Below are positions 14,415 to 29,559 of a stretch of 64,000 nt of DNA, in pieces. Each line of letters starts with the position of its first letter. Position 1 is the first letter of the stretch. The notes under the pieces are model-generated. The model saw only the letters and a list, made by a program, of their open reading frames with translations. It ran no database searches and was not told where the DNA came from. The stretch is from Tunturiibacter empetritectus (lineage in GTDB: Bacteria > Acidobacteriota > Terriglobia > Terriglobales > Acidobacteriaceae). The translations under genes and the position numbers were made by a program. The stretch covers positions 62,001-126,000 of the forward strand of contig NZ_JACHDZ010000005.1 in assembly GCF_014201375.1 (NCBI RefSeq), read 5' to 3'.

Positions 14415-15680
14415 TTAAGTTGTAGTCACGTCGACAACCTTCCTGGTCACGGCCGCGATCGCTCGGCGAAGACCGATCCTATCCTCCTCATAACTCCATC
14501 CCGAGATTCTGTTCAGACCACGTTGTCCCATGATCCTCGCTGTCTCCGGGCTTGCGAGAACTCGTTGCAGCGCCTCCGTCAGCGCGACCACGTTGCCCAC
14601 CGGAAACACACAACCTTCGACACCATCGGTCACCAGATCGGGTTGGCAACCTACGTCATCGGAGAGGATCACGGCGCGCCCCGAGTTCATCACCTCGTTC
14701 ACGACCAACCCCCAGGGCTCGTCCTGCGAGGGCAAGACAAAGACTGTGGCGAGACTAAAAAAACCTGGCAGCTCCGATTGATTGCGAAAGCCGCAAAAAC
14801 GAACTCCACTGGCGCCGTTCTCGGAGACACGCCTCTCCAACGCCACCCGTTCCTCGCCATCCCCCACGATCACGAGGTAGGGAACCGGCTCGGTTCCAGC
14901 TTCAGAACAAAAATTGAGATAAGCCTCGAGCAGATCTTCGCATCGCTTCCGTCGCTGCAGCTTTGAGGCAAACAAAATGACGGGGCGGGAGGCGTCAAGG
15001 CCAAGCTCCCGCAACAGATCATCTCGCCGCAGATCAGCCTCTCGGCTGCGACTCTGAAAGTAGTTATTGTCCACCGCATACGGCATCGGGAACTGCGGAA
15101 GCTCCTCGCCCAGAGCGTGACGCCAGTACGCAGTATTCAAACTCCCAATAGGCAGCACTCCGTCGACGAGTAGCTTCAATCCACTGAAGTAAAAGCGCTT
15201 CGCAATCTGCTTCAGAAAACCGATCTGCTTTCTTCCAAGACGCGACTCCGCACGAAGCAGTACCGGAATCCCAAGCGCCTTGGCCACCAACATTGCCTGC
15301 AGCGCGTTCAGCGTTGAGTAGCCATGAACCCAAAGCACGTCAAATCCGCGCTCCTCTTTGCGCCCTCGAAGCCGGCTGAAGATGCCGTAGTTCAACTGGC
15401 TCGTCGGCCCGGTTCGCCTCTTATCCCATATCGCCGGGAGAAACTCGTAACGATAGCCGTCAAGCAGAGGCACATCCCACTTCACGTCCACGCCAAATCC
15501 CTTGTCGACATACTCCTGCACCGAGAAGTTCGAAGCAAAGAAAACGGTCAGTTCAATATCGGGCTCCTGTGCGATTCGCCGCAGCAACGGGGCCTGGTAC
15601 TGGATGGGATGGCTCACAAGGTAGGCCACCTTCACCTTCTTCTTCGTGTTGCTCTCTCGGCTTGGGTCAGGAGATCTCAT
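14415..15680 (-). CDS. Glycosyltransferase, GT4-like (copy 2 of a tandem pair)
   Basis: A 421-residue GT-B enzyme, closely similar throughout to the next gene upstream: both share AYLVSHPIQYQAPLLRRIA, GFGVDVKWDVPLLDGY (or EGY), AKALGIPVL and MPYAVDNNYF (or NDYF). The C-terminal domain contains ILFASKLQRRKRCEDLLEA and DEPWGLVVNEVMNSGRAVI with the donor-binding Glu residues. Tandem duplication with divergence suggests two successive transfers in one repeat unit, but donors are unknown. The gap to the paralogue is 14 nt. Confidence 0.88.
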   Translation of the reverse strand: MRSPDPSRESNTKKKVKVAYLVSHPIQYQAPLLRRIAQEPDIELTVFFASNFSVQEYVDKGFGVDVKWDVPLLDGYRYEFLPAIWDKRRTGPTSQLNYGIFSRLRGRKEERGFDVLWVHGYSTLNALQAMLVAKALGIPVLLRAESRLGRKQIGFLKQIAKRFYFSGLKLLVDGVLPIGSLNTAYWRHALGEELPQFPMPYAVDNNYFQSRSREADLRRDDLLRELGLDASRPVILFASKLQRRKRCEDLLEAYLNFCSEAGTEPVPYLVIVGDGEERVALERRVSENGASGVRFCGFRNQSELPGFFSLATVFVLPSQDEPWGLVVNEVMNSGRAVILSDDVGCQPDLVTDGVEGCVFPVGNVVALTEALQRVLASPETARIMGQRGLNRISGWSYEEDRIGLRRAIAAVTRKVVDVTTT

Positions 15681-15694
15681 GGCGGCGGCCAGCG

Positions 15695-17008
15695 CTAGGC
15701 GATGATCCTTCGTGTCAGTTGCGCGATGGCCTGGCGCAGCGCCTGAATGTCCTCTTCAAAGCTCCAGGCGTTGATTCGGTCGAGTGCGCGCTGACCCATC
15801 TGCGCCGCGGACTCCGGCGTTGCCAGCACGCGTCGCAGCGCCTCGGCGAGCGCGCTCACATTTCGCACGGGGAACACATATCCTTCCACGCCATCCGTCA
15901 CCAGATCGGGTTGACACCCGATATCGTCGGACAGGATCACCGCACGTCCGGCGTTCATCGCCTCATTCACCACCAACCCCCAGGGCTCATGGCGGGCGGG
16001 CAGGACAAATACGCTTGCGAGATCAAAGAACCTCGGCAGCTCCGACTGATTGCGAAACCCGCAGAATCGAACGTCCATCAATCCGCGCGATTTGGCCTGT
16101 TCTTCGAGTGCGGCTCGCTCCTCTCCATCGCCAACGATCAGCAGATAAGGGCGTGGCCGGTCCGTCTCGTCGTTGATCAAACTCTCATACGCGTCGATCA
16201 GATCGGAGCAGTGTTTGCGCTGCTGCAGTTTTGAGGCGAATAGGATGATTGGTCTTCCGGGATCAAGGCCAAGCTCTCTGCGGAAGGCGTCGCGCGTCGT
16301 AGCAGCCTCCTGGCTTCGTCGCTGGAAGTAATCATTGTCCACGGCATAGGGCATCAGAAATAATGGCACGTCGTCACCCAGATAGTGCCGCCAGTACTCG
16401 ATATTCAACGTGCCGACAGGCAGCACTCCATCCACCATGTTCTTCAGAAACTGAAAGAAGAGCGTCTTCAGAAGAAGCTTCGGGCCACTCCGTGCGCGGT
16501 CACGCAGCCACATGTCGGCGCGCACCAGCACGGGGATTCCCAGCGCCTTCGCAGCCACCATTCCGTGCAGCGCATTCACCATGTTGTAGCCATGGGTCCA
16601 TAGCAGATCGAAGCCGGGCTCTCCATTGCGGCCGCGAAGTTCGCTGAAGATGCCGTAGTTCAGCGGGGTGGTCACCGTCTGCGTGCCATCGTCACGGATC
16701 ACCGGCAGAAATTTATGGCGGTATCCCTCGAGCAGCGGAACGTCCCACTTCACATCCACGCCGAAGCCTTCATCCTGGTAGCTGCGTACCGAAAAATCCG
16801 AGCCAAAGAAGACAGTTAGGTCGATGTCCGGCTCCTGCGCGATGCGGCGCAACAGCGGAGCCTGATACTGGATAGGATGGCTCACCAGATAGGCCAGCCT
16901 CACTCTCTTCTTCAAGCCTTTTCCAACGTCCGACGAGGGTAAAACCATATCTTGTAGGTTCTCAGGCGAAGCCCGGTCGATGCGTTCTTGACTACTGTTG
17001 AATGGCAA
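15695..17008 (-). CDS. Glycosyltransferase, GT4-like (copy 1 of a tandem pair)
   Basis: A 437-residue paralogue of the following gene. It carries 20 or so extra N-terminal residues before KRVRLAYLVSHPIQYQ. Donor domain: ILFASKLQQRKHCSDLIDAY and RHEPWGLVVNEAMNAGRAVI. Its start overlaps the end of the SLBB gene by 17 nt, so the two are translationally linked. Together with the kinase and export genes it forms one minus-strand operon of six genes (20.3 to 12.6 kb). Confidence 0.88.
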   Translation of the reverse strand: MPFNSSQERIDRASPENLQDMVLPSSDVGKGLKKRVRLAYLVSHPIQYQAPLLRRIAQEPDIDLTVFFGSDFSVRSYQDEGFGVDVKWDVPLLEGYRHKFLPVIRDDGTQTVTTPLNYGIFSELRGRNGEPGFDLLWTHGYNMVNALHGMVAAKALGIPVLVRADMWLRDRARSGPKLLLKTLFFQFLKNMVDGVLPVGTLNIEYWRHYLGDDVPLFLMPYAVDNDYFQRRSQEAATTRDAFRRELGLDPGRPIILFASKLQQRKHCSDLIDAYESLINDETDRPRPYLLIVGDGEERAALEEQAKSRGLMDVRFCGFRNQSELPRFFDLASVFVLPARHEPWGLVVNEAMNAGRAVILSDDIGCQPDLVTDGVEGYVFPVRNVSALAEALRRVLATPESAAQMGQRALDRINAWSFEEDIQALRQAIAQLTRRIIA

Positions 17009-18071
17009 TAATCAGGATCGAAATGATTCCCAGCAGCGTACCGATGCCGCCATTCTTGATCGCTGATTTCATCGGACTGGACGGCAGGAATACGATGTCT
17101 TCGGCCTGCAGGACAGGATCCGGAACCTTACCGTTGATCACCTTGGTGATATCGACGCGAACCACCTGTCGGGTGGTGCCTGTCGTGCGAATGATTCTTA
17201 GGTCGTTGAATCTGCCTTCAAAACCCGGGCCGCCTGCAAGGGCTGCCACCTTCATCAGAGTGATAGGAGAGTTTTGTTGTAGCGGGATCGCTCCCTGAAC
17301 CTTGAAGGCGCCCAGCAGATAGACCACGCCAACCCGTGGAACGATGATCGTATCGCGCGGAAAGATGGGGATGTTGATCAGCGCACTCTTCGCGGGATCG
17401 GTGCCAAGGTCGATGACGATCGGCTCCGCTGCGCCGTAACGATTGATCGTGATGACATGGCTTGCGGTCGACGGCAGTCCTCCACCTCCACCCACAACGG
17501 TTGTTGCGCCGCCACCCCCCCCTCCTCCTCCCGCAGCCGCCAGTACATCAAACAGGCGGCGCTGGCCAATTACCGGCACGATCCCTTTCACTTCGCCGAT
17601 AAGGGTAACGATCTGATTTGGAGATTCCGTAATCTGAATCGACACCTGAGGATCACGATACATGCCGGCAGCCACCAGTTTCTGCGCGATCAGATTCTGG
17701 GCCTGATGAACGGTAAGGTCGTTCACCACTACACTCCCAATCAGAGGCAGTTGAACGGTGCCGTCAAGACCGATCCGCACGATCGGAGTGTAGTCCGGGT
17801 TTCCGTATATCCGTATGGAGAGCACGTCCCCGATTCCAAGATAGGCGTCGCGGCCGGCAGGGAACAGAATTGCAGGATCGGTGGTGATCGTGATCGGGGG
17901 ATTCACCTCGGCCGTGATCCCGAGCGCCGGTCCGCTGAACTGCGCCTCCGCGAAGCGGCCGCAGAGAGCCATCAGAAGAAAAACAGCGGAAGCAAGCCAG
18001 ACCTTGCGACAGTCAATTTGATTCACGTGCTTCTCGGCTCCTGTCCGGAGACCTTCCCGTCTCTGTCTCAT
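16992..18071 (-). CDS. Polysaccharide export protein with SLBB domains (Wza-like)
   Basis: A 359-residue exported protein. The start ATG overlaps the stop of the kinase gene (ATGA), preferred over a longer frame inside that gene; a GTG 45 nt on is an alternative. The signal segment is VWLASAVFLLMALCGRFAEAQ. Poly_export domain: YLGIGDVLSIRIYGNPDYT to VSIQITESPNQIVTLIGEVK (about 75-180). SLBB-like repeats follow (VGVVYLLGAFKVQGAIPL). A glycine run in AAGGGGGGGG and GGGGGLP is unusual. The C-terminus has a hydrophobic helix (TLLGIISILIIAI). Its expected role is in the outer-membrane channel for the polymer. Confidence 0.88.
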   Translation of the reverse strand: MRQRREGLRTGAEKHVNQIDCRKVWLASAVFLLMALCGRFAEAQFSGPALGITAEVNPPITITTDPAILFPAGRDAYLGIGDVLSIRIYGNPDYTPIVRIGLDGTVQLPLIGSVVVNDLTVHQAQNLIAQKLVAAGMYRDPQVSIQITESPNQIVTLIGEVKGIVPVIGQRRLFDVLAAAGGGGGGGGATTVVGGGGGLPSTASHVITINRYGAAEPIVIDLGTDPAKSALINIPIFPRDTIIVPRVGVVYLLGAFKVQGAIPLQQNSPITLMKVAALAGGPGFEGRFNDLRIIRTTGTTRQVVRVDITKVINGKVPDPVLQAEDIVFLPSSPMKSAIKNGGIGTLLGIISILIIAIQQ

Positions 18072-20326
18072 CGCTTTGTCTCTCCGGCGTTGGTGTGCTC
18101 CCTTTCGGCAGCCGTCTGCGACTCCCAACTATCGGAGTCCACACTGGAGTAGGAGTAACCCGAGTAGCCGTAGTAGCCGTAGTACTCCGGCGAGTTCAGA
18201 TCAACTGCGTTCAGCACGATTCCGGTGATGGCGGCGCCCGAGCGCAGCAGCAGATCCCTGGCCCGGCGCACCACATGCTTGCTCGATTTGCCATGACGCA
18301 CGACCAGCACCACAGCGTCAGCCTGTCGCGCCAGAATCACGCCATCGGTCACCGACAGGATTGGCGGCGAATCGATCACGATGTAGTCGTATAGCTCTCC
18401 ACAGCGCTTGAGGATCGTCTCCATCGCCGCCGAACTCAGCATTTCGGTAGGGAATGGCGGAACCGGCCCGCTCGGCAGAATGTCCAGATTTGGAATCTCG
18501 GGCACGCTCTGTACCGTCTCCTCCAGCTTGGTTGCTCCGGTCAATACCGTCGTCAGACCGATCTTTCCGTTCAACCCGAACCGATGATGAATATTGGGCC
18601 GTCGAAGGTCTCCGTCGATCAGCAGAACCCGCGTGTCCCGTTGCGCCAGGATCGCAGCCAAATTGCTCGCGGCCGTCGTCTTTCCTTCCGACGGCGTTGC
18701 GCTGGTCAGCACTATGAACTTCGGCGGTTGGCCGGTACTGGAAAGCAGCAGCGACGTACGCAGGGAACGGAACGCCTCCGCAAACTGCGACTTCGGCTGT
18801 GTCAGGATTCCGACGTTGCGTTGCGCAGTGCTCAGGGTCGCGGCCTGATCGACCGACGATCTGCGTGCTCGCGGAATGATTGCCAGCGACGGCAACTCCG
18901 TAATGCTTTCAATCTCTGCAATGCTGCGCAACCCGGTATCCAGGCTCTCCATCAGGAAGGCCACCACGATACCCGCCAGAAGCGAAAAGATCAAAGCCGT
19001 TATGATCACCGTTGATTGAGGCCGCAACACAGGCTGCGCCGGAGGCAACGCCTGGTCCACAACATCGACATCCAGAGACTCAAGGCCCGATTGAACGCTG
19101 GCCGTTCGCAGCCGGGATTTCAGGCTGTCATAGAGGGTTCGGTTGGCCTCGTACTCCCGTTGGCGCAGGGTGTACTCCACCAGTTGATCCCGCAGCTTGT
19201 AGGCTTCTGTCTTCTGAGCCTCAAGTGCTGCGGTCGTCTGATCTTCATTCGCCTTTGCGACCACGAAATTCTGCTTCGCCTGCACAATCAGGCGGTTCTG
19301 CTCCTCATTGATCTCTTTGACGAACTCGTCGATCTGAGCCTTAAGCGCCTTGGATTGGGGATGATTCGGGCCGAGCGAAGACTCCAGCGTGGCATAGTTC
19401 GCTTTAGCCCCGGCCAGTTGCGCGCGCAGTTGCGTCAGCTCTCCAGGTGCCGTTCCAGGAGTCAGCTCGATGGTGCCTTCGATGGTGTTCGGGTCCATTC
19501 CGCTTACGACTCGGTAGCGTGCCTCAGCAATGATGCGAGCCAGCTTCGCCGCACCGGACGCTCTGGCGAGGTCATCGAGCGATTCGTTAATCTGATTGTG
19601 GTTCGGATCAAATCCAAGGATGCCAAGGCGACGCTGCATGTCCATCGTCTGTTCCTGCGACGACTCTACCTCCTGCCTCAGACCTTCGAGCGTACCGGAG
19701 AGCCAGACGGAGGCCCGCTGCGAGGATTCGTATCGGACCTGATAGCTTCGCTGAACGTAGTCCGAGATGATCTTGTTGACGATATCGGACGACAGCTTCG
19801 CGTTCAGGCTGCTGTAGCTGATGCGGATAATATCGGTCTTCGCAACGATCGTGACGTGCAGGTTGCTCTGCAGGCGATGGACCGTATCCTGCCTGGTCTC
19901 GCCATCCGACAGGTTCGCCCGCGGCTGCGGTGCCGTCGGTTTTTCGAGAAAATCCGCGTTGTTGGCCAGGTCCATCTCGCGGCAAACGTTCAACATCAGC
20001 GAATCGCTCTTGATAATCTCAATCTCGCTCAGCAGTTTTGTGCTGGCGTCGCCGCCGTAGGCCGCCACCGCGCTAACCCGGTATTCGTTCGACGAGCCCG
20101 AACGCACCTGAATACGTCCATAGGCCTCATACAGCTTCGGCTGCGACTCGGCCTTGTAGATTCCGTATGCCAAACCTAGCAGAACAGCAATAATCAGGAC
20201 CAGCTTGCGTTTCCGCAGCACAATCAGGGCTTCAGAGAGCGTAGTATCTGTAACCGTTGTACTGAACCCTGCCTGGTTCGTCTCCGGAACACCCACATGC
20301 GGCGGCTGCGTATTTTTAGAACCCAT
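18068..20326 (-). CDS. Wzc-like polysaccharide co-polymerase and tyrosine autokinase (BY-kinase)
   Basis: A 752-residue fusion of chain-length regulator and kinase. Wzz domain: first membrane helix LVLIIAVLLGLAYGIY about 50-67, long periplasmic coiled coil about 200-420, second helix ALIFSLLAGIVVAFLM near 450. Cytoplasmic kinase: Walker A SEGKTTAAS (about 545), Walker A' LLIDGDLRRPN and Walker B YIVIDSPPIL. The C-terminus holds a seven-tyrosine cluster (YYGYYGYSGYSY, about 715-726), the expected autophosphorylation site. It is first in the polysaccharide operon, and its likely antagonist is the CpsB-type phosphatase at 4.7-5.5 kb. Confidence 0.94.
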   Translation of the reverse strand: MGSKNTQPPHVGVPETNQAGFSTTVTDTTLSEALIVLRKRKLVLIIAVLLGLAYGIYKAESQPKLYEAYGRIQVRSGSSNEYRVSAVAAYGGDASTKLLSEIEIIKSDSLMLNVCREMDLANNADFLEKPTAPQPRANLSDGETRQDTVHRLQSNLHVTIVAKTDIIRISYSSLNAKLSSDIVNKIISDYVQRSYQVRYESSQRASVWLSGTLEGLRQEVESSQEQTMDMQRRLGILGFDPNHNQINESLDDLARASGAAKLARIIAEARYRVVSGMDPNTIEGTIELTPGTAPGELTQLRAQLAGAKANYATLESSLGPNHPQSKALKAQIDEFVKEINEEQNRLIVQAKQNFVVAKANEDQTTAALEAQKTEAYKLRDQLVEYTLRQREYEANRTLYDSLKSRLRTASVQSGLESLDVDVVDQALPPAQPVLRPQSTVIITALIFSLLAGIVVAFLMESLDTGLRSIAEIESITELPSLAIIPRARRSSVDQAATLSTAQRNVGILTQPKSQFAEAFRSLRTSLLLSSTGQPPKFIVLTSATPSEGKTTAASNLAAILAQRDTRVLLIDGDLRRPNIHHRFGLNGKIGLTTVLTGATKLEETVQSVPEIPNLDILPSGPVPPFPTEMLSSAAMETILKRCGELYDYIVIDSPPILSVTDGVILARQADAVVLVVRHGKSSKHVVRRARDLLLRSGAAITGIVLNAVDLNSPEYYGYYGYSGYSYSSVDSDSWESQTAAEREHTNAGETKR

Positions 20327-20570
20327 TCCCCCTAGTCTACCCGAGCAGCCCTGCCGGAAGCAGGATTAGATGAACAGCAGGCTCCTAATGGTCCAAAAGT
20401 GTTACCTCATCCTGCAACGCCCCTGTAACTAGGCAAACTCGGATATCCTCGACCAGGAGCCATAACACCATCAACCGATGGGCGATCCATCGAAATTGAG
20501 CCACTGAGACATCCTCGATCCTGCAAGTTTTAGGCCAGCAGGTCTTCCATCCCATGAAAGGTACTACGTC

Positions 20571-21506
20571 ATGTCTCGAAAGATTCTCGTCACAGGAGCC
20601 GCCGGCTTTCTTGGGTCTCATCTCTGTGACGCGTTGCTCTCTAACGATGACACCGTCGTCGGAGTCGACAACCTCAGCACCGGCAACCTGGCCAACCTCA
20701 GCCATCTCTCGCGCGAAAGCCGCTTCCGCCTCATCGAACTCGACATCTGCAAGCCCTTCGACCTCGGCAAAGCAGACTACATCTTCAACTTCGCCTCCCC
20801 CGCCAGTCCAATCGACTACTCCCGCCTCGGTGTCGAAACCTTGCTGGTCGGCTCTGCCGGCACTATCAACACCCTCGACCTCGCTCGCAAGTATGGCGCC
20901 GGCTATCTCCACGCCTCCACCTCCGAGTGCTACGGCGACCCCGAGGTTCATCCCCAGGTCGAGACCTATTGGGGCAACGTCAATCCAGTCGGTCCGCGCT
21001 CGGTCTACGACGAGGCCAAGCGCTTCTCCGAGGCCGCCGTTACCGCCTACCATCGCTACTATGGCGTCGACACGCACCTGGTCCGCATCTTCAACACTTA
21101 CGGACCGCGCCTTCAAGCCAGCGACGGCCGAGTCATCTCAAACCTAATGGTGCAGGCCCTGCGCGGCGAACCTCTCACCATCTACGGCGACGGCTCCCAG
21201 ACCCGCAGCTTCTGCTACGTCTCCGATCTCATCGAAGGGATTCTTCTGCTCTCACGCTCCGGGGAGCATCTTCCTGTCAACCTTGGCAATCCGGTCGAGT
21301 GGACCATTCTCGAATGCGCCCGCGAGATCCTCGCCGTTACAGGTTCCAGGGTCGAGATCCTCTTTCGTGACCTGCCGCAGGACGATCCCGCCCGCCGGCG
21401 CCCGGACATCACCCGTGCCAGGACGCTCCTCAACTGGGAGCCGAAGGTCACCCTCCGGCAGGGCCTCGAACGCTCTCTCGAATACTTCAAAGCCTGTGTC
21501 GCCTAG
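20571..21506 (+). CDS. NAD-dependent epimerase/decarboxylase, UDP-glucuronate decarboxylase-like
   Basis: A 311-residue extended SDR. NAD motif [10 protein letters not shown] (8-17); Tyr-x3-Lys as [12 protein letters not shown] (Tyr about 145, Lys about 149). NFASPASP and [16 protein letters not shown] are typical of UDP-xylose synthase and related UDP-sugar decarboxylases, which make UDP-xylose from UDP-glucuronate. It diverges from the kinase gene with a 245-bp promoter gap. The context suggests a nucleotide-sugar donor for the exopolysaccharide. The exact reaction is likely, not proven. Confidence 0.85.
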
Positions 21507-21529: not shown

Positions 21530-21717
21530 TATACGGGAGGTACGCCCTGCGCGGGAGGCGGTCACTTCGTGACGCGTATACCGGTGGTGGAACGAACGCC
21601 GTGGTCCTCCCGTTGATCGGAGAGAAAGATGGCTCGCGACCAACGGGAGCGCCAACCGAAGGGGTATACAAGTCACGAAGTGACCGCCGCCCGCGCAGGG
21701 CGCCCGTCCGGCAGGAC
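21530..21717. repeat. Palindromic element, copy 5 (left tip eroded)
   Basis: The right side is an intact B arm: GGGTATACAAGTCACGAAG, CCGCCCGCGCAGGGCGCCC, GTCCGGCAGGAC. The left A arm keeps GCCCTGCGCGGGAGGCGG, GTCACTTCGTGAC and GCGTATACCGG but has lost the outer GTCCTGCCGGAC. The core is GGTCCTCCCGTTGATCGG and GCGACCAACGGGAG. It ends 11 nt from the stop of the Wzi-like gene, in a convergent gap. Confidence 0.88.
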
Positions 21718-21728
21718 ACAGCTTCGAC

Positions 21729-23714
21729 TTAGTGAAAGGACGGGCCATTCCGTAACTTCGGATACCAGGTCAGCTGTACCGCAGTCGAAGTATCCTGCTG
21801 CAGTCCCGGCTTATAGACCGGCGCCTTCCAGCCCTCATACTGCACCCATGCGTTCAGCTCCACGTTTTTGTCTTTTCCCAGTCGTTTCACAACGCTCGCC
21901 TTGAACTGGTTTTGCGTCGTCCCGCCGGGGATAAAGTTCGCGGGCGTCTTCTTGTTCAGATACTCCAGCTGAATCCACTCATTGCCCGAGAAGTGATAGG
22001 TCAGCCATGCCTGGCCGCCCTTGGCCTCGCGCCCTATCCAGTCCCCCATGATGAATCCGTTATTCGTATAGCCCTGCTTCTGGATGGTCTCCCAATAGGC
22101 AAGCTGTCCTGAGTGGGCCACCGAGACGCCCGGGTCGGTCGATACCGCCTCCACTCTGAAATCGAGGCCCTTGACTCCCGGAATCTGCGAGAGATACAGC
22201 CCCGTCCTATACGACGCGCGGCGAGGCGCGCTGATCGGTGTCACATCGTCATGCGAGATCGAGTCCACGACGAAGGTGACATATTTGCGGAGCAAAGGAA
22301 GGCGGTATGAGGCTTCAAAGTCGCTGAACCTTGCCCCCGGATCGTTTCGTCCTGCCTTCTCTGCCGCAGTCGTATCGTTCGGGTCGAAGAAGCCGCGCAG
22401 AAACGTGTGCAGCGTCACCGGCGAATGCCCCTTTCCTCCAAAGATGATCGTTCGCTCAAATCCGAACTCAAAGTTTTCCGTAGGCCGGAAAGCAAACTTC
22501 TCCGCATGGACCCAGGGGTCTCGCGGAACGTTATGTCCCTTCAGATCGCCGTAGAAAAAGTCATAACGAAGCGGGCCCAACAGCTTTGACACGAACGGGA
22601 TATACAGCGGTTCAACCCGGTTGATGCGAAACGAATAGATATTCTCTGCGTTGTTAGACCATGCCAGCGAGCCGCCTGCGCCCGGTCCCAGCCATGCATC
22701 GCTCTTGCCGCCGGAGACCTCGTGGCCCAGCACGTGCACCGAAGCGTAGGCCTCAACCAGCCGAAACGGATTCTGGTCCGAGATCGGCCCCAGCGGAATC
22801 GTGGTCTGAGGTCCCGGATACGGAATGATTAGGTCGACCGTAGACAAAAGCTGCGCCAGATCGAGAGAGTACCCATCAGCCGAGGGGGCGTGCTGATACT
22901 CGCCGCGGATATACAGCGAAAACGGTCCCCACTCTCCCAGTCCCGAAGCCCCCACAATGCTGTTGAAGCCGCTCTGGTAGGGACGCCCATAGTCGTTACT
23001 GATCGTTTGGCCAAGGTGGTAGCTGTCCCGCAGAATCGGCCCGCTGATCCCCAGCAGGCGCGTATAAGAGGAGGCCAGCCCATACACAACGCCACGCGCA
23101 ATCAGCCCGCCGTCAGGATCCTCCTCACTGATCTCGTTCTCCAGCTTTGCGAGGATCGACTGTGCCTCTTCGTTGCCGCTGTTGACGATGTCGCCCCGGG
23201 AGTCCTCCAGCATATGCAGGATGCTGCGGCGCGTATAAGGCCGCATGCCGAGAAACATCGTGTTGAGGAAGCCCATCGAGTAAAGCCGCGTCATCGCCGG
23301 ATACACCCAGCTATCGTCCGGAATGTAGGTCGATCCCAGCCGGTCCGGAGGTGGCTTCAGATCGTCAGGAGCATAGCCGGGATAACCGATAAACGGTCTC
23401 TCCTTGCTCGTCTGCTCCGGCGGAACGACTGGCTGAGCCGTCTGCGTAGGAGGAGGCAGCGAGGGGTTTGCCACAGGAGGAGTTGCAGAGGGTGCCGGCT
23501 GCGAAGGAACCGGCGCAGGCGCTGGCGACTGTTGCGGCGCCGCATAAGGCGCAATGCCATTCGTGGTTCCCTCTGGCGCTGGAATTGGAGTTGGAGCCGG
23601 GGCAGAGTCCGAGGCTGGTGGGGGAGCCGGAGGGGGCGTTGGCGTCTGCGCGATCGCTGTCGATGCGGCACATAAACTCAGTGCTGCAAAACAAAGAGAA
23701 ACTTTGGTCCGCAC
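21729..23714 (-). CDS. Capsule assembly Wzi-family outer-membrane protein
   Basis: A 661-residue protein. Signal peptide MRTKVSLCFAALSLCAASTAIAQ, then about 80 residues of Pro/Ala/Thr-rich linker. From about 110 a conserved region (STYIPDDSWVYPAMTRLYSMGF, RPYTRRSILHMLED) precedes a long beta-rich section with amphipathic strands, ending in LTWYPKLRNGPSFH, a terminal aromatic typical of outer-membrane barrels. Wzi-type proteins anchor or assemble capsule at the cell surface. It converges on the epimerase gene and lies outside the main operon. Confidence 0.83.
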   Translation of the reverse strand: MRTKVSLCFAALSLCAASTAIAQTPTPPPAPPPASDSAPAPTPIPAPEGTTNGIAPYAAPQQSPAPAPVPSQPAPSATPPVANPSLPPPTQTAQPVVPPEQTSKERPFIGYPGYAPDDLKPPPDRLGSTYIPDDSWVYPAMTRLYSMGFLNTMFLGMRPYTRRSILHMLEDSRGDIVNSGNEEAQSILAKLENEISEEDPDGGLIARGVVYGLASSYTRLLGISGPILRDSYHLGQTISNDYGRPYQSGFNSIVGASGLGEWGPFSLYIRGEYQHAPSADGYSLDLAQLLSTVDLIIPYPGPQTTIPLGPISDQNPFRLVEAYASVHVLGHEVSGGKSDAWLGPGAGGSLAWSNNAENIYSFRINRVEPLYIPFVSKLLGPLRYDFFYGDLKGHNVPRDPWVHAEKFAFRPTENFEFGFERTIIFGGKGHSPVTLHTFLRGFFDPNDTTAAEKAGRNDPGARFSDFEASYRLPLLRKYVTFVVDSISHDDVTPISAPRRASYRTGLYLSQIPGVKGLDFRVEAVSTDPGVSVAHSGQLAYWETIQKQGYTNNGFIMGDWIGREAKGGQAWLTYHFSGNEWIQLEYLNKKTPANFIPGGTTQNQFKASVVKRLGKDKNVELNAWVQYEGWKAPVYKPGLQQDTSTAVQLTWYPKLRNGPSFH

Positions 23715-23884: not shown

Positions 23885-24295
23885 TTACTTGGAATTTGCG
23901 ATAACCCAGCCGTAGATCGTCTCGAGATCCGCTGTTCGCTGGCGTGTTAGTTCTTCAAGGCAAGCTGAATAGGCCGGAGCAGACGCAGTTCCACCGTTGT
24001 AGAGATTGCTCTCTGCCGTGCAGGTCGCGTCTCGAAACTGTATCCAAAGACGTTGCGCCACTTTTAGCCGTTGCAGGTCATCCGCTTGCAGCACCTTCGA
24101 TATCTGGCTGAACCTCTGATTCAGTCCACCATCAGCGGCTTTGTACGCTTTATCGAAGCAGTTTTCCATGGCCACGGTCACCACTTCGTTCCGGCAGGGC
24201 GCGCTTGCGGAGTTCATGTGCTGGGCTTTGGCGACGGTGCCGAAACAAATGAAGGTTGCGAGCAAGATCAGCCAGGAACGGACAAGAGGGATCAT
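23885..24295 (-). CDS. LprI-like (DUF1311) exported protein
   Basis: A 136-residue protein with signal peptide (WLILLATFICFGTVAKAQ) and the short four-cysteine helical domain of the LprI/DUF1311 group: CRNEVVTVAMENCFDKAYKA, LNQRFSQI, LKVAQRLWIQFRDATC, and SACLEELTRQRTADLE. Members include lysozyme-inhibitor LprI, but most have no known role. The ATG at 24295 is preferred; a TTG lies 15 nt upstream. It is a stand-alone gene in a low-density stretch. Confidence 0.75.
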   Translation of the reverse strand: MIPLVRSWLILLATFICFGTVAKAQHMNSASAPCRNEVVTVAMENCFDKAYKAADGGLNQRFSQISKVLQADDLQRLKVAQRLWIQFRDATCTAESNLYNGGTASAPAYSACLEELTRQRTADLETIYGWVIANSK

Positions 24296-24400
24296 GGCCC
24301 ACGATAACAAACCTCAGGGTGCCTTTCCGGTTGCGGGCATGAAAATGACGTGGTGAGTGATGTATCTTGCTGCGAATACAGTTCAGTGAGGACACGCCGT

Positions 24401-25270
24401 TCAGCGCATGAAATACGCTTTGCGAAGCCGCTCTCCGGCCCGCTTCAGCCACGCCCTTGTGCAGACCTTGCGCCCCAGCAGAAATCCCTGCATCTGCACC
24501 AGCGGATCCTGCGCGGCGTCTCCTCCCGCGCCCTCCACCCGATATCCTTTGCATTCAATCAGAACCGGCCCCCCGCCCCCCCGGATCCTCCCCAGCGACT
24601 CCTGGGTCACGCGATACAAGGCCACCGCATCGTTCACGTCCACCGGCATTCCCGGCATCCCCCACCTGCGAACCTTCGCGCTCAGTTGGCTCACACCAAC
24701 TTTATCTTTGCCTTTGGATGGTAAGACCACAAAGATCATCGGCAGATCCAACTTCGCAGCGGACTCGATGATCTCCCGCCACTGCCTCTTGTCCAACTCC
24801 GAGTGGCCGGCATAGGCGACCACCACGCTGCCCCGCTTCAGCGTCTTGAACGAGAGTGCGGAGCCCATCGCCATTCGCAGCCGGTCGCTCACATCGTCCA
24901 CCCAAGGCAAAACCCGCGCCAGGGCACCCTCCCTGGCCAGCTTCGCTCCGTCGATCTTGCCTTCGTGAAACTTCGCAACACGCCCCAACAGAGAATCGAT
25001 CTGCGCCTTCGACTGCGGGCCCGTGATCAGATCCATCACCACGCCAGGCTGCGAGTCGCTCACCAGATCGCCCGGCAGCAGCTCCAGCGCCGTGCTCACC
25101 CGGCAGGCCTCCTCTCCAAGCGTAGAACCCAGCCGCCTCCGCGCCTTCACGCTTTTCTGCAACCCGGCAACGTGCTCGTCCAAAGCTCTCGCGTCGGCCA
25201 TCACGCTATACATCTGCAGCAACTTCTTGTTCGGCACCAGTGGATTCTCGTACAGCCCCGCGTCGCTCAA
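24401..25270 (-). CDS. E1-alpha-like protein with degenerate thiamine-diphosphate site
   Basis: A 289-residue protein related to the E1 alpha subunit of 2-oxoacid dehydrogenases. The N-terminal LLQMYSVMADARALDEHV resembles E1-alpha helix 1 and LGSTLGEEACRVSTALEL the G-E-E-A motif; RLRMAMGSALSFKTL and EIIESAAKLDLPMIFVVLPS match the ThDP half. The ThDP/Mg signature GDG-x(22-28)-NN is not present: YAG replaces GDG and LPSKGK replaces the NN. It is therefore unlikely to be an active E1. It starts at TTG with GGAGGG just upstream and follows aceE on the same strand behind a terminator. Confidence 0.7.
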   Translation of the reverse strand: MSDAGLYENPLVPNKKLLQMYSVMADARALDEHVAGLQKSVKARRRLGSTLGEEACRVSTALELLPGDLVSDSQPGVVMDLITGPQSKAQIDSLLGRVAKFHEGKIDGAKLAREGALARVLPWVDDVSDRLRMAMGSALSFKTLKRGSVVVAYAGHSELDKRQWREIIESAAKLDLPMIFVVLPSKGKDKVGVSQLSAKVRRWGMPGMPVDVNDAVALYRVTQESLGRIRGGGGPVLIECKGYRVEGAGGDAAQDPLVQMQGFLLGRKVCTRAWLKRAGERLRKAYFMR

Positions 25271-25297: not shown

Positions 25298-25328
25298 AAA
25301 AACGAGAGGGTTCCCGCGAGGAACCCTC
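25298..25328 (-). terminator. aceE rho-independent terminator
   Basis: A perfect 9-bp stem, GAGGGTTCC with GGAACCCTC and a 5-nt loop, followed on the minus strand by TCGTTTTTGTAAC. It lies 28 nt after the aceE stop and before the start of the E1-alpha-like gene. Confidence 0.88.
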
Positions 25329-25355: not shown

Positions 25356-28031
25356 CTAGGCGCGCGCCGGATCGACCGCTTCGACATCCAGACCAAGCTC
25401 GGCCAACGCCTTCTGCGCCGCCTTCGGTTTGAACTTCCCATCACGAGCCAGCTTGGACAGCGTAGCGCCAACGATCGCCTCGGCACTGACCTCAAAGTGC
25501 CTCCGCAGATGCTCGCGGTTGTCGCTCCGTCCGAAGCCATCCGTGCCCAGAGTCACCAGACGCGAAGGCAGCCACGGCGACAGCAGATCCGGCACCGACT
25601 TCATATAGTCGCTGGTCGCAATGATCGGTCCAGCCGAGCTGCCAAGCGCCTGCAGGACGTAAGGCACTTTCTCCTTCTCCGCCGGATGCAGCCTGTTCCA
25701 TCGCTCTACCGCCAACGCATCGCGCCGCAGCTCGGTGTAGCTGGTCACACTCCACACATCGGCCTGCACGCTGTACTTCGAAGCCAGAATCTCCTGCGCC
25801 CGCAGCACCTCGTTCAGAATCGGTCCGCTGCCAAACAACTGTGCTGTCGCTTCGCCAGCCGCCGGCTTCAGCTTGTACATCCCGCGCAGAATCCCCTCCG
25901 CCGAACCCTCCGGCATCGCAGGCATCGCATAGTCCTCGTTGTACATCGTGATGTAGTAGAAGCAGTCTTCGCCCTTCTCATACATCCGGCGAATGCCATC
26001 CTGAATCACGACTGCCAGCTCATACACAAACGCCGGATCATAGGTCACACAAGTAGGAACAGTACTCGCCAGCACGATGCTATGCCCATCCTGATGCTGC
26101 AAACCTTCGCCAAGCATCGTCGTTCGCCCAGCCGTGCCACCCATCAAGAAGCCCTTGCCGCGCGAGTCCGCAAAGGCCCACACCATGTCCCCGATGCGCT
26201 GAAAGCCAAACATCGAGTAGTACATATAGAAGGGAATCGCCGGCACTTTGTAGTTCACATAAGCCGTGCCTGCCGCGGTAAACGAGGCCATCGACCCCGC
26301 CTCCGTAATCCCTTCCTCGAGAATCTGCCCGTCTTTATCCTCGCGGTAGTAGAGCAGCATATCCGCATCGTGCGGCTCGTACTTCTGCCCCTCGGGAGCG
26401 TAGATTCCAACCTGCCGGATCGCCGACTCGAGCCCGAACGTCCTGCCCTCATCCGGCACAATCGGCACAATCAACTTCCCAATCGCCGGGTCCTTCATCA
26501 GGTGCCGCAGTATGCTCACGAACCCCATCGTCGTCGACACCGCACGCTTATTTGACCCCGCCGTCCACTCGCCGAAGTACTCCAGACCCGGAGCCTTGAA
26601 CTCAGTCTTCGGCACCTCACGCGTCGGCAGATACCCACCCAGTTCCCTGCGCCGCTCCTGCATGTAAACGATTTCGGGAGAGTCCTGCGCCGGCCGGTAC
26701 GGCGTGCCCGATTTCGCCGCCTCCTCGGGAATTGGAATCTCGAAGCGCTTCACAAACGCCGCCAGCCCATCATCGGCCAGCTTCTTCTCCGAGTGGGTCG
26801 CATTGCGCGACTGTGCCGAACCCAGCCCATGACCCTTCACGGTCTTCGCCAGAATCACGGTCGGACCACCCTTATGCTCCACCGCCCGCTTATACGCGTT
26901 GTAGATCTTCGTCCGGTCATGCCCGCCACGATGCAGCAACCCAAGCTGCTCATCGGTCATATCCTTCACCAGCTCCAGCAGCTCCGGATACTTCCCGAAG
27001 AAGTTCTCCCGCAGGTACGCCCCGCCCTTCGCCTTGAACGTCTGGTACTCGCCATCCACGCACTCTTCCATCCGGCGCAGCAGCAGTCCCGTATGGTCGC
27101 GCTCAAACAGCGCATCCCAATCCGAGCCCCAAACCACCTTGATCACATTCCATCCAGCGCCGCGGAAGACGCCCTCCAACTCATCGATGATCCGCTTGTT
27201 CCCGCGCACCGGGCCGTCAAGCCTTTGTAAATTGCAGTTGACGACAAAGATCAAATTATCCAGCTTCTCCCGCGCCGCCACCGAGATAGCGCCCAGGCTA
27301 TCGACCTCGTCCGTCTCGCCGTCGCCCACAAACGCCCACACCTTGCGGTCAGTTACCTCAATCAGCTTGCGATTCTCCAGATACCGCATAAACCGCGCCT
27401 GATAGATCGCATTCAGCGGCCCAATCCCCATCGACACCGTAGGGAAGTTCCAGAAGTTCGGCATCAGCCACGGATGCGGATACGAGCTCAGCCCCGGTGT
27501 CTCTCTCAGCTCATGCCGAAAGTTCTTCAGCCGATCGTCATCCAACCTCCCCTCGAGATAAGCCCGCGCATACACCCCCGGCGAAGCGTGCCCCTGGAAG
27601 TAGATAAAGTCTCCCGGCTGCTCCTGCCCACCGGCCGTGTACTTCGCATGGAAGAAGTGATTGAAGCCAACCTCAAGCAGCGTAGCCAGCGAAGAGTAGG
27701 TCGAGATGTGCCCACCGATTCCTGCGTCTTTCTTGTTCTGGCCATGCACCATCGCCATTGCGTTCCAGCGAATCAGGCTCTCCACCCGCCGCTCCAACGC
27801 TCTGTCGCCCGGATACGCAATCTCGTCATGCTTCGGAATCGTGTTGCGATAGGGAGTCGTCAGCTCGCTCGGCGTTGGTACTCCTGCTTCGTGGGCGCGC
27901 TTTCGCAGAGCCTCCAACAGCTCCGAGCCCTGCTCCCAGTCTGCGGCGACGACGTCGTCGAACGCCTCAATCCACTCGGAGACTTCGGCGGTAAAGTCCT
28001 GCTTGGCGGCTTCTTCTAGTTTCGTTGTCAT
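25356..28031 (-). CDS. aceE: Pyruvate dehydrogenase E1, homodimeric type
   Basis: The 891-residue AceE-type E1 converts pyruvate and lipoyl-E2 to CO2 and acetyl-lipoyl-E2 using thiamine diphosphate. The cofactor motif is complete: GDGETDEVDS near 235 and VVNCN near 265. N-terminal HISTYSSLATLLEVGFNHFF and FIYFQGHASPGVYARAYLEG match AceE. E2 and E3 genes are not in the window. It is monocistronic by layout, with a terminator behind and a 249-nt gap to argJ upstream that holds palindromic copy 6. Confidence 0.97.
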   Translation of the reverse strand: MTTKLEEAAKQDFTAEVSEWIEAFDDVVAADWEQGSELLEALRKRAHEAGVPTPSELTTPYRNTIPKHDEIAYPGDRALERRVESLIRWNAMAMVHGQNKKDAGIGGHISTYSSLATLLEVGFNHFFHAKYTAGGQEQPGDFIYFQGHASPGVYARAYLEGRLDDDRLKNFRHELRETPGLSSYPHPWLMPNFWNFPTVSMGIGPLNAIYQARFMRYLENRKLIEVTDRKVWAFVGDGETDEVDSLGAISVAAREKLDNLIFVVNCNLQRLDGPVRGNKRIIDELEGVFRGAGWNVIKVVWGSDWDALFERDHTGLLLRRMEECVDGEYQTFKAKGGAYLRENFFGKYPELLELVKDMTDEQLGLLHRGGHDRTKIYNAYKRAVEHKGGPTVILAKTVKGHGLGSAQSRNATHSEKKLADDGLAAFVKRFEIPIPEEAAKSGTPYRPAQDSPEIVYMQERRRELGGYLPTREVPKTEFKAPGLEYFGEWTAGSNKRAVSTTMGFVSILRHLMKDPAIGKLIVPIVPDEGRTFGLESAIRQVGIYAPEGQKYEPHDADMLLYYREDKDGQILEEGITEAGSMASFTAAGTAYVNYKVPAIPFYMYYSMFGFQRIGDMVWAFADSRGKGFLMGGTAGRTTMLGEGLQHQDGHSIVLASTVPTCVTYDPAFVYELAVVIQDGIRRMYEKGEDCFYYITMYNEDYAMPAMPEGSAEGILRGMYKLKPAAGEATAQLFGSGPILNEVLRAQEILASKYSVQADVWSVTSYTELRRDALAVERWNRLHPAEKEKVPYVLQALGSSAGPIIATSDYMKSVPDLLSPWLPSRLVTLGTDGFGRSDNREHLRRHFEVSAEAIVGATLSKLARDGKFKPKAAQKALAELGLDVEAVDPARA

Positions 28032-28093: not shown

Positions 28094-28272
28094 GTCCTGC
28101 CGGACGGGCCTCCTGCGCGGAGGGCGGGCGTTCACACGCCTTTTTAGAGCTTCGCGTGGTCCTCCCGCTGGTCGGCACAAGATCCTGTTCGCGACCAACG
28201 GGAGGACCACGCGAAGCGGTATACAAGTCACGAAGTGACCGCTGCCCGCGTAGGGCGCCCGTCCGGCAGGAC
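28094..28272. repeat. Palindromic element, copy 6 (full length, left arm diverged)
   Basis: Outer arms GTCCTGCCGGAC and GTCCGGCAGGAC are intact. The right B arm is perfect (GCGGTATACAAGTCACGAAG). The left arm has lost the GTATAC and GTCACTTCGTGAC blocks. The inner core is a near-perfect stem of about 25 bp, CTTCGCGTGGTCCTCCCG with CGGGAGGACCACGCGAAG, extended by TGGTCG and CGACCA. It ends 7 nt from the argJ stop. Confidence 0.88.
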
Positions 28273-28279
28273 ACCGCCT

Positions 28280-29518
28280 TTAAGTCGAGTAATCCGCATT
28301 AATCCGCACATACTCTTCCGTCAGATCACAAGTCAGAAACCGGCACTCCGCCTCGCCCAGCCCCAGATCGATCGTGATTGTGTAATCCCGAGCCTGCATC
28401 TCCGCATGCGCCGCCGACTCCTGGAACGCAGCCGACCGCACCCCAAGCTCAAACACCGGCTGGCTCCCAATCGTGATATTCACCAGCGCCGGATCAAACA
28501 CCACCCCACTGTACCCAGCCGCGGCCAGCAGTCGCCCCCAGTTCGGGTCCGCACTCGACCACGCCGTCTTGCACAACGGCGAGTGAGCAATCGCCTTCGC
28601 CACCTGCTTCGCCTCAGCCTCAGTCCGCGCACCGGTAATATGCAGCGTGACGACATGACCTACGCCCTCGCCGTCATCCACAATCTGGTACGCCAGCGAC
28701 CCGCACACCAGCTTCAGAGCATTCGCAAACGGCTCCTGCGTGCGTGCATCGAGCTTCACGCCACTCACTCCGCTGGCCAGCAGCAACACCGTATCGTTAG
28801 TCGAAGTATCGCCATCGATCGAGATCGAATTGAAGCTTCGCTCCACCGCAGGCTCCAGCACCCCGCGCAGTTGTTCACTCTCCGCAGCAATATCGGTAAA
28901 CAGATAAACCAGCATCGTCGCATGCGCTGGCCCCACCGGCGCACCAAGCTGCGGATGAATCATCCCCGCGCCCTTCGCCACACCAAAGATCCGCACCTCA
29001 ACTCCATCGACATCGATCGAAGCTCGCGCCACCTTCATCTTCGTATCGGTCGTCATAATAGCTTGGGCAAACGAGTCCGCATGCTCCGGCGTCGCACCCA
29101 TCTCCTGCTCCAACTCAGGCAGCGCGGACACTACCTTCTCGGAAGGGAACGGCACACCGATAATCCCCGTCGAAGAAGGGAAGACCTCATCAAAGATGCA
29201 GTGAAACCTCTCCGCCGCCGCGACACACGTCTGCACACAAGCCTCTACTCCAGGCTGCCCGGTCGCGCAGTTTGCATTCCCCGCATTGACCAGCACCACG
29301 CCCACGCGCCCGCCGGTAGAAGCCATATGGCGCCGTCCCACTGTCACCGGCGCCGCCACAACCTGGTTCTTAGTAAACATCGCAGCAGCATTCGCACCCT
29401 TGGCCGCGACCGCAATCGCAACATCGGCATTGCCACTCGCCTTGATTCCGGCCCTCACCGCGCCCCACGCAAAACCCAGCGGCAGCGTCTGCGACTTCAT
29501 TATCTCGTCACTCTGCAT
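28280..29518 (-). CDS. argJ: Bifunctional glutamate N-acetyltransferase/amino-acid acetyltransferase ArgJ
   Basis: A 412-residue ornithine acetyltransferase, cycling acetyl groups between N-acetylornithine and glutamate in arginine synthesis. The self-cleavage site is HATMLVYLF, whose Thr becomes the nucleophile of the beta subunit (near residue 197). It is preceded by AKGAGMIHP, with an unusual insertion (QLGAPVGPA) where many family members read HPNMATML. VNAGNANCATG is the N-terminal signature. The ATG at 29518 (MQSDEIMKSQ) is chosen over a start 27 nt upstream, and the start is not certain. No other arg genes are adjacent. Confidence 0.92.
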   Translation of the reverse strand: MQSDEIMKSQTLPLGFAWGAVRAGIKASGNADVAIAVAAKGANAAAMFTKNQVVAAPVTVGRRHMASTGGRVGVVLVNAGNANCATGQPGVEACVQTCVAAAERFHCIFDEVFPSSTGIIGVPFPSEKVVSALPELEQEMGATPEHADSFAQAIMTTDTKMKVARASIDVDGVEVRIFGVAKGAGMIHPQLGAPVGPAHATMLVYLFTDIAAESEQLRGVLEPAVERSFNSISIDGDTSTNDTVLLLASGVSGVKLDARTQEPFANALKLVCGSLAYQIVDDGEGVGHVVTLHITGARTEAEAKQVAKAIAHSPLCKTAWSSADPNWGRLLAAAGYSGVVFDPALVNITIGSQPVFELGVRSAAFQESAAHAEMQARDYTITIDLGLGEAECRFLTCDLTEEYVRINADYST

Positions 29519-29559
29519 ATCCTCTACTCTACAATCTCCCTGCATCCAAACTTTTGTTT

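Follow-up and report, generated by a model that had tools for sequence, protein, structure and literature searches.

Why a subunit of pyruvate dehydrogenase (PDH) that has lost its active site is kept beside aceE is the question raised by one gene of Tunturiibacter empetritectus. In the window, i.e., the whole stretch of 64,000 nucleotides analyzed (contig NZ_JACHDZ010000005.1, positions 62,001 to 126,000), this gene occupies positions 24401..25270 of the minus strand. The first-pass annotation had described it as an E1-alpha-like pseudoenzyme with a clean Shine-Dalgarno sequence and reading frame, located directly behind homodimeric aceE, and had suggested that it might be a regulator, scaffold or decoy of the PDH complex. 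The location and the frame were as described. The gene aceE (25356..28031, minus strand), encoding a homodimeric pyruvate dehydrogenase E1 of 891 aa (TIGR00759, 1294 bits), runs in the same direction and ends 85 bp ahead of the ORF 24401-25270; the latter, encoding 289 aa, begins with a TTG start codon, five bases before which lies GGAGG. TTG was present in 9/9 and GGAGG in 8/9 of the loci of the genus that were compared.

The window protein matched the E1_dh domain (PF00676, E 6.8e-14), and solved E1-alphas could be aligned to its residues ~8-250, which confirmed the claimed alignment with E1-alpha along most of the protein. It also matched TIGR03181 (E 4.9e-24), with 84.9 bits against a cut-off of 411 bits, i.e., below the level of an equivalog. 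The AlphaFold model, built from an alignment of 47 rows, had a pLDDT of 89.0 and a pTM of 0.89, and PDH and branched-chain E1-alphas matched it across almost its full length in the structure comparison (human PDH E1-alpha 6cer_A: Z 27.1, rmsd 3.2, 273 residues). In the alignment, the GDG position of the thiamine diphosphate (ThDP) motif G(D/E)G...NN was occupied by GHS (VVVAYAGHSE), the NN position by PS (VVLPSKGK), and the active-site loop YRxxGH(S/H) read YRVEGAGGD. Hence, the earlier statement that the thiamine motif was destroyed was correct, as was the placing of its second half in LPSKGK; the first half had been placed one residue off, at YAG. Thus, the window protein has the E1_dh domain and the fold of a catalytic E1-alpha but neither the ThDP motif nor the His loop nor a neighboring E1-beta. 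Because ThDP binding in the known way appears to be impossible and E1-beta is missing, a role as a dehydrogenase subunit is very unlikely. With an open frame, purifying selection (see below) and the loss of the catalytic residues, the protein is indeed a pseudoenzyme derived from E1-alpha. A chance ORF or artefact was ruled out by the full fold, the wide conservation and the purifying selection.

The origin of the gene was studied by searching 200 genomes of the order, after which loci were read individually. Groups of genomes are labeled g1, g2 and so on, g1 being the genus of the window. An E1-alpha was classed as live when the thiamine motif and the His loop were both present, irrespective of E1-beta; one fused gene (L003) was set as live by hand. 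In G131 and G129, the slot of the window gene contained argJ - E1a - E1b - wzi, with an E1-alpha carrying GDG...NN and YRWYGHS, and no aceE match was detected at E<=1e-100 in either genome. The order argJ - E1a - E1b was also found in G107, G135 and G048. Intact-motif orthologues, the finding of which the first-pass annotation had regarded as refuting its proposal, do therefore exist, at the same locus and with E1-beta alongside. A second slot, divergent from nadK (identified by one Pfam match) and a gene that we take, by eye, to be tlyA-like, contained live E1a - E1b in four loci (L159, L163, L173, L174). Since relatives carry live E1a and E1b in the same slot, the window gene is, judging by its position, the descendant of a heterotetrameric E1-alpha.

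The flanks of the ancestral slot could be recognized in the window, where the gene order is argJ - aceE - degenerate E1a - lprI - wzi. The upstream flank, argJ (28280..29545, minus strand), was identified by PF01960 and synteny, and the downstream flank, a gene for a Wzi-family capsule assembly protein (21729..23714, minus strand), by PF14052 (7.4e-121) and synteny. The gap between the degenerate gene and wzi holds a gene for a small LprI-family protein (23885..24310, minus strand; PF07007), which lies outside the ancestral slot. This gap was 690 bp in the window and 687 bp in G029, and it did not exceed 227 bp wherever else wzi was found in g1. Judged by spacing, the LprI-family gene is also present in G029 and missing from the other g1 loci with wzi within 227 bp. 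Two copies of an 89-bp repeat, 91% identical (21634-21722 and 28189-28277), bracket the block wzi - lprI - degenerate E1a - aceE, and a 159-bp direct repeat is present in two copies, 74% identical, at 15247-15405 and 16515-16673. Beside the Wzi gene, the ORF list read by eye contained polysaccharide-export-like, chain-length/tyrosine-kinase-like and UDP-sugar epimerase/decarboxylase-like proteins (16992-21506), which suggests an exopolysaccharide locus.

The state of the active site followed the presence of E1-beta. E1-beta was adjacent or, in L003, fused in 20/20 live E1-alphas, a non-random sample since they were picked for matching the window protein well, and it was found beside 0/115 degenerate E1-alphas at the mapped loci; the latter are referred to below as orphans. 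The ThDP motif was never complete in 115/115 orphans. The old E1-beta was present at 71-100% identity in 6/6 genomes with a live copy, and in the seven orphan-only genomes tested, no E1-beta more than 48% identical to the old one was found (E<=1e-40), the best matches, at 45-48%, being to a fused protein. In the own genome of the window, E1-beta was matched only twice, at 45-46% identity, once in another E1 operon and once in a fused E1. Fused E1 alpha-beta 2-oxoacid dehydrogenases, in frames of ~730-830 aa, occur widely across the family (e.g., G000:C7:256947-257906), including g2 genomes in which aceE was not matched. In g20, a series of states was found: G135 had a live gene and no aceE match; G107 had a live gene and aceE elsewhere; and in G077 and G163, E1-beta was gone, aceE was elsewhere, and a full-length E1-alpha showed the change of GEG to DEG, a retained NN and an altered His loop. 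Among the 115 orphans, two fresh ones still carried DEG...NN. It may be concluded that the loss of E1-beta accompanies the loss of the active site.

This loss occurred more than once. In a mixture-model tree of 41 rows, hand-picked from 135, five changes between the live and degenerate states were counted (bootstrap 4-6), and well-supported branches forced at least two. A single orphan clade was rejected in this tree by the AU test (p-AU 0.00015), which rules out a single origin of all the orphans for these 41 rows. In the same tree, the tlyA-locus orphans were placed among the tlyA-locus live genes, and the g14 orphans were grouped with the g14 live genes with a support of 84/94 (not starred). 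A quick LG+G4 tree of all 135 rows, which gave long-branch warnings, placed most orphans in one clade and contained two forced changes.

Orphans were found in 126/186 sampled genomes of the family, 115 of them mapped and 11 more detected by profile; this number covers those classed as orphans and is no complete census. The orphan was present in 41/41 g1, 15/15 g6, 13/13 g8 and 21/26 g2 sampled genomes. It was not found in the 14 g5 and four g17 genomes sampled; a genome without a match may reflect an assembly gap, and the result otherwise indicates that the role of the orphan is dispensable there. A search for close relatives among genome contigs gave four loci (L033-L036). A phylum search (247 genomes in all) at E<=1e-14, a cut-off that leaves out weaker matches such as those of the second family of the order, gave outside the family (f1) only matches of 25-31% identity, in frames mostly of 323-466 aa and, in three cases, of 556-854 aa. 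A far-diverged g8 orphan of 239 aa was also predicted to fold as E1-alpha (Z 21.2 to 1um9_A over 201 residues), with a mean pLDDT of 83 and most core blocks above 90. Stops had been reported in several orphans by the profile search, and broken genes were considered as their cause. In-frame reading of the 11 extra orphans placed the stops outside the gene, either ahead of its start or past its end, except in G037 and G047, where they may fall within the N-terminal part. In G127, a stop was reported in the match, yet a 281-aa frame was open; short matches in G114, G093, G126 and G194 were left out of this reading.

The orphans are under purifying selection. In three close g1 pairs, pN/pS of the orphan was 0.21 (P 3.5e-47 vs neutrality), with values of 0.18 for residues 1-60, 0.11 for 61-125, 0.27 for 126-205, 0.05 for 206-241 and 0.40 for 242-289. 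The codons of residues 206-241 (PGMPVDVNDAVALYRVTQESLGRIRGGGGPVLIECK; 24548..24655, minus strand), which include D214, R220, E224 and R230, therefore form the most constrained element. Pairwise Nei-Gojobori dN/dS was 0.06-0.33 for orphan pairs with dS below 0.95, 0.54 for the freshest orphan pair, which is relaxed, and 0.5-0.6 for some orphan pairs further apart within the genus; aceE had 0-0.05 in the same close g1 pairs, and live E1-alpha pairs had 0.04-0.09.

Across the 115 orphans from 25 genera, only D68, D214, R220, E224 and R230 were strictly invariant, all of them charged, at a frequency of 0.29 for the top residue of the median column. R220, E224 and R230 were also present, by eye, in the 11 further orphans. 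Profile detection favors a motif in the R220 region, yet no sampled g1, g6 or g8 genome was missed. R220 was encoded by CGC in 61 orphans, CGG in 26, CGT in 17, CGA in nine and AGG and AGA in one each, and these mixed codons indicate constraint at the protein level. D68, D214 and R230 are also conserved in live enzymes, and the five residues may merely hold the fold. R220 was present in 11/18 live genes of the clade, namely, in 9/9 at the two ancestral slots and in 2/9 elsewhere; its loss in the relocated live copies was confined to one clade, so those nine are not independent. In six of the nine cases of a relocated live gene, the genome also kept an orphan.

The relation of the orphan to aceE was examined at 108 aceE loci from 105/145 matching genomes (own genome included), those left out being mostly the 57-60% identity group; in the order, aceE matches at E<=1e-100, some of them partial, occurred in 144/200 genomes. 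Among the mapped orphans, 72/115 were co-oriented with aceE and less than 1.5 kb away from it. Together with the presence of the orphan in every genome sampled from the genus, this bears out the conservation of the pair that the first-pass annotation had asked about. Conversely, the orphan adjoined 72/108 aceE loci, and none was found beside the other 36, some of which lay at the end of a contig or were second copies. Four genomes had an additional aceE whose product was 63-65% identical to the window AceE (G045:C1:1814698, G010:C4:22186, G105:C12:10213 and G058:C1:960223). The layout was argJ - aceE - E1a - wzi in g1, g6 and g8, argJ - E1a - aceE - wzi in g22, g32 and g42, and E1a - aceE at the nadK slot in G168. 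These differing layouts indicate that aceE came to adjoin the orphan at no fewer than two slots, a pattern that suggests a functional tie or, alternatively, the reuse of an old PDH control region. The orphan does not occur only with aceE: none of the g2 genomes had an aceE match at E<=1e-100, and other genera have aceE elsewhere. The idea that the protein is tied to AceE was therefore not supported.

A terminator-like hairpin, consisting of a 10-bp stem followed by a T-run, was found in the gap between aceE and the orphan (25306..25328, minus strand). Because a scan of the window locus gave four terminator-like sites in 4.8 kb, no more than in shuffles, the case for this hairpin rests on the comparison of loci. 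A hairpin was present in 49/66 pairs with the orphan downstream (46/66 with other settings), vs 5% in shuffles that preserved base composition only; by genus, the counts were 34/40 in g1, 10/10 in g8, 5/15 in g6 and 0/1 in g10. At other aceE loci, a hairpin was found 3' of the gene in 17/42 cases, vs 11% in shuffles. The stems differed on both sides in several genomes, by eye, and the hairpin may simply be the aceE terminator. Placed between the genes, it makes an equal output of AceE and the orphan unlikely and thereby speaks against an equimolar partner.

These findings were brought together in an explanation that we consider somewhat better than an even bet, namely, that the E1-alpha outlived the E1-beta of an alpha2-beta2 pyruvate dehydrogenase because it was kept for a second, non-catalytic role. 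The ancestral operon would have been argJ - E1a - E1b - wzi in some genera, and in others an E1a - E1b pair facing away from tlyA/nadK. E1-beta would have been lost several times independently in the family, catalysis would have been taken over by AceE or another route, and aceE would have come to adjoin the remaining E1-alpha in many lineages. Freed from catalysis, the E1-alpha would have shed the thiamine motif and the His loop, with the fold and D68, D214, R220, E224 and R230 being kept by purifying selection. The live E1-alpha at these loci would already have had the second role, which would be centered on the R220/E224 helix and exerted at a low dose. This role would most likely be protein-binding: a regulator of low copy number that binds another protein would be in keeping with the stable fold, the constrained helix, the hints of a low dose (TTG start and upstream hairpin) and the persistence of the orphan whether or not aceE is there. 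By analogy with what has been proposed for the PDH E1-alpha of Bacillus subtilis, the role could be regulatory.

Several of the observations above speak against this explanation: the five residues may serve the fold only, the R220 losses are not independent, the freshest orphan pair is relaxed, just two losses were forced in the 135-row tree, and several genera do without the orphan. In addition, recurrent siting beside aceE fits a role linked to AceE as well. As the main rival, the orphan would bind AceE or its E2 and tune the homodimeric PDH complex. The siting of the 72 orphans, at two loci and in both gene orders, is beyond chance, and the orphan is universal among the sampled g1, g6 and g8 genomes; however, 21/26 g2 genomes keep it with no aceE match, a third of the aceE loci examined lack it nearby, the hairpin separates the two genes in most pairs, and the siting may reflect the capture of an old PDH control region. 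We regard this partnership as rather unlikely. Alternatively, the emptied thiamine pocket could bind another small molecule and signal the pyruvate or energy state. The alpha/beta core was confidently predicted even in the 239-aa orphan, and the invariant residues are charged, but the former thiamine-motif positions drift freely among the orphans, where a shared ligand should have fixed some of them; a sensor of this kind is improbable.

Two further explanations would require no function of the protein. That the gene is a decaying relic whose open frame has not yet been broken would fit the fast drift, the relaxation of the freshest pair, the several genera without the gene and the stops reported in the matches of G127, G037 and G047 (at the N-terminus), G114 and G093. 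It is very improbable in view of the pN/pS of 0.21, the five residues invariant across 25 genera and the other 9/11 extra orphans, in which any reported stops lay outside the conserved part. The frame could also be kept only for a cis effect in the operon, i.e., for spacing, translational coupling or mRNA stability, as little DNA separates the gene from its neighbors, in many cases 4 bp or, counted from stop to stop, an overlap of the frames. Nevertheless, the constraint acts on amino acids, synonymous codons vary at the invariant positions, and the gene order and neighbors are variable, so that we give this effect hardly any credence.

Compared with the E1-alphas of PDH and branched-chain 2-oxoacid dehydrogenases (PF00676; TIGR03181, TIGR03182; 1um9, 1w85, 6cer), the orphan has the predicted whole-length fold and the VDxxD-helix-RxRxGxGP segment but lacks the GDG-NN motif, the His loop and the E1-beta partner, and its C-terminus is shorter. 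Pseudoenzymes as such are well known, and moonlighting of PDH E1-alpha has been proposed, a role that is hard to part from catalysis. We know of no description of a PDH subunit that was orphaned more than once in parallel and kept, and the literature search, at the level of titles and listings, gave no description of this orphan family or of a PDH E1-alpha pseudoenzyme. For other reasons, aceE has been listed in Acidobacteria (PMC5462960), and aceEF transcription has been reported in Acidobacterium capsulatum (PMC11636273). With the pseudoenzymes kept after the loss of catalytic residues (reviewed in PMC10211241), the orphan shares the lost motif, the kept fold and purifying selection; unlike them, it is what remains of an enzyme with two kinds of subunit, having been orphaned in parallel more than once and having outlived its partner. 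In B. subtilis, the position of PDH E1-alpha over the nucleoid depends on pyruvate, and the protein has been proposed to stimulate Z-ring formation by an unknown mechanism, which would link the pyruvate level to this step (PMC8270655). The orphan would resemble it in having an E1-alpha role outside catalysis; unlike the orphan, whose active site is gone, the B. subtilis protein is a subunit of a pyruvate-metabolizing enzyme. An action of the orphan in cell division is a lead from B. subtilis.

A broader reading, which we put forward tentatively and do not expect to hold in full, is that E1-alpha has an ancient catalysis-independent regulatory function in this family, that E1-beta was repeatedly discarded after AceE or another route had come to provide acetyl-CoA, with E1-alpha repeatedly kept as a dedicated regulator for which the R220/E224 helix is essential, and that the relocated live copies, serving catalysis only, lost R220. 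The E1_dh match could cause the orphans to be annotated automatically as pyruvate dehydrogenase E1-alpha, leading to misleading metabolic models. The loci record a stepwise swap of one type of pyruvate dehydrogenase for another, with intermediates still alive. More than once, evolution did away with both the active site and the partner subunit, yet selection on the protein persisted, which points to a single small element. If the proposed explanation is true, the family would be a natural experiment that parts the moonlighting role of E1-alpha from its catalytic role.
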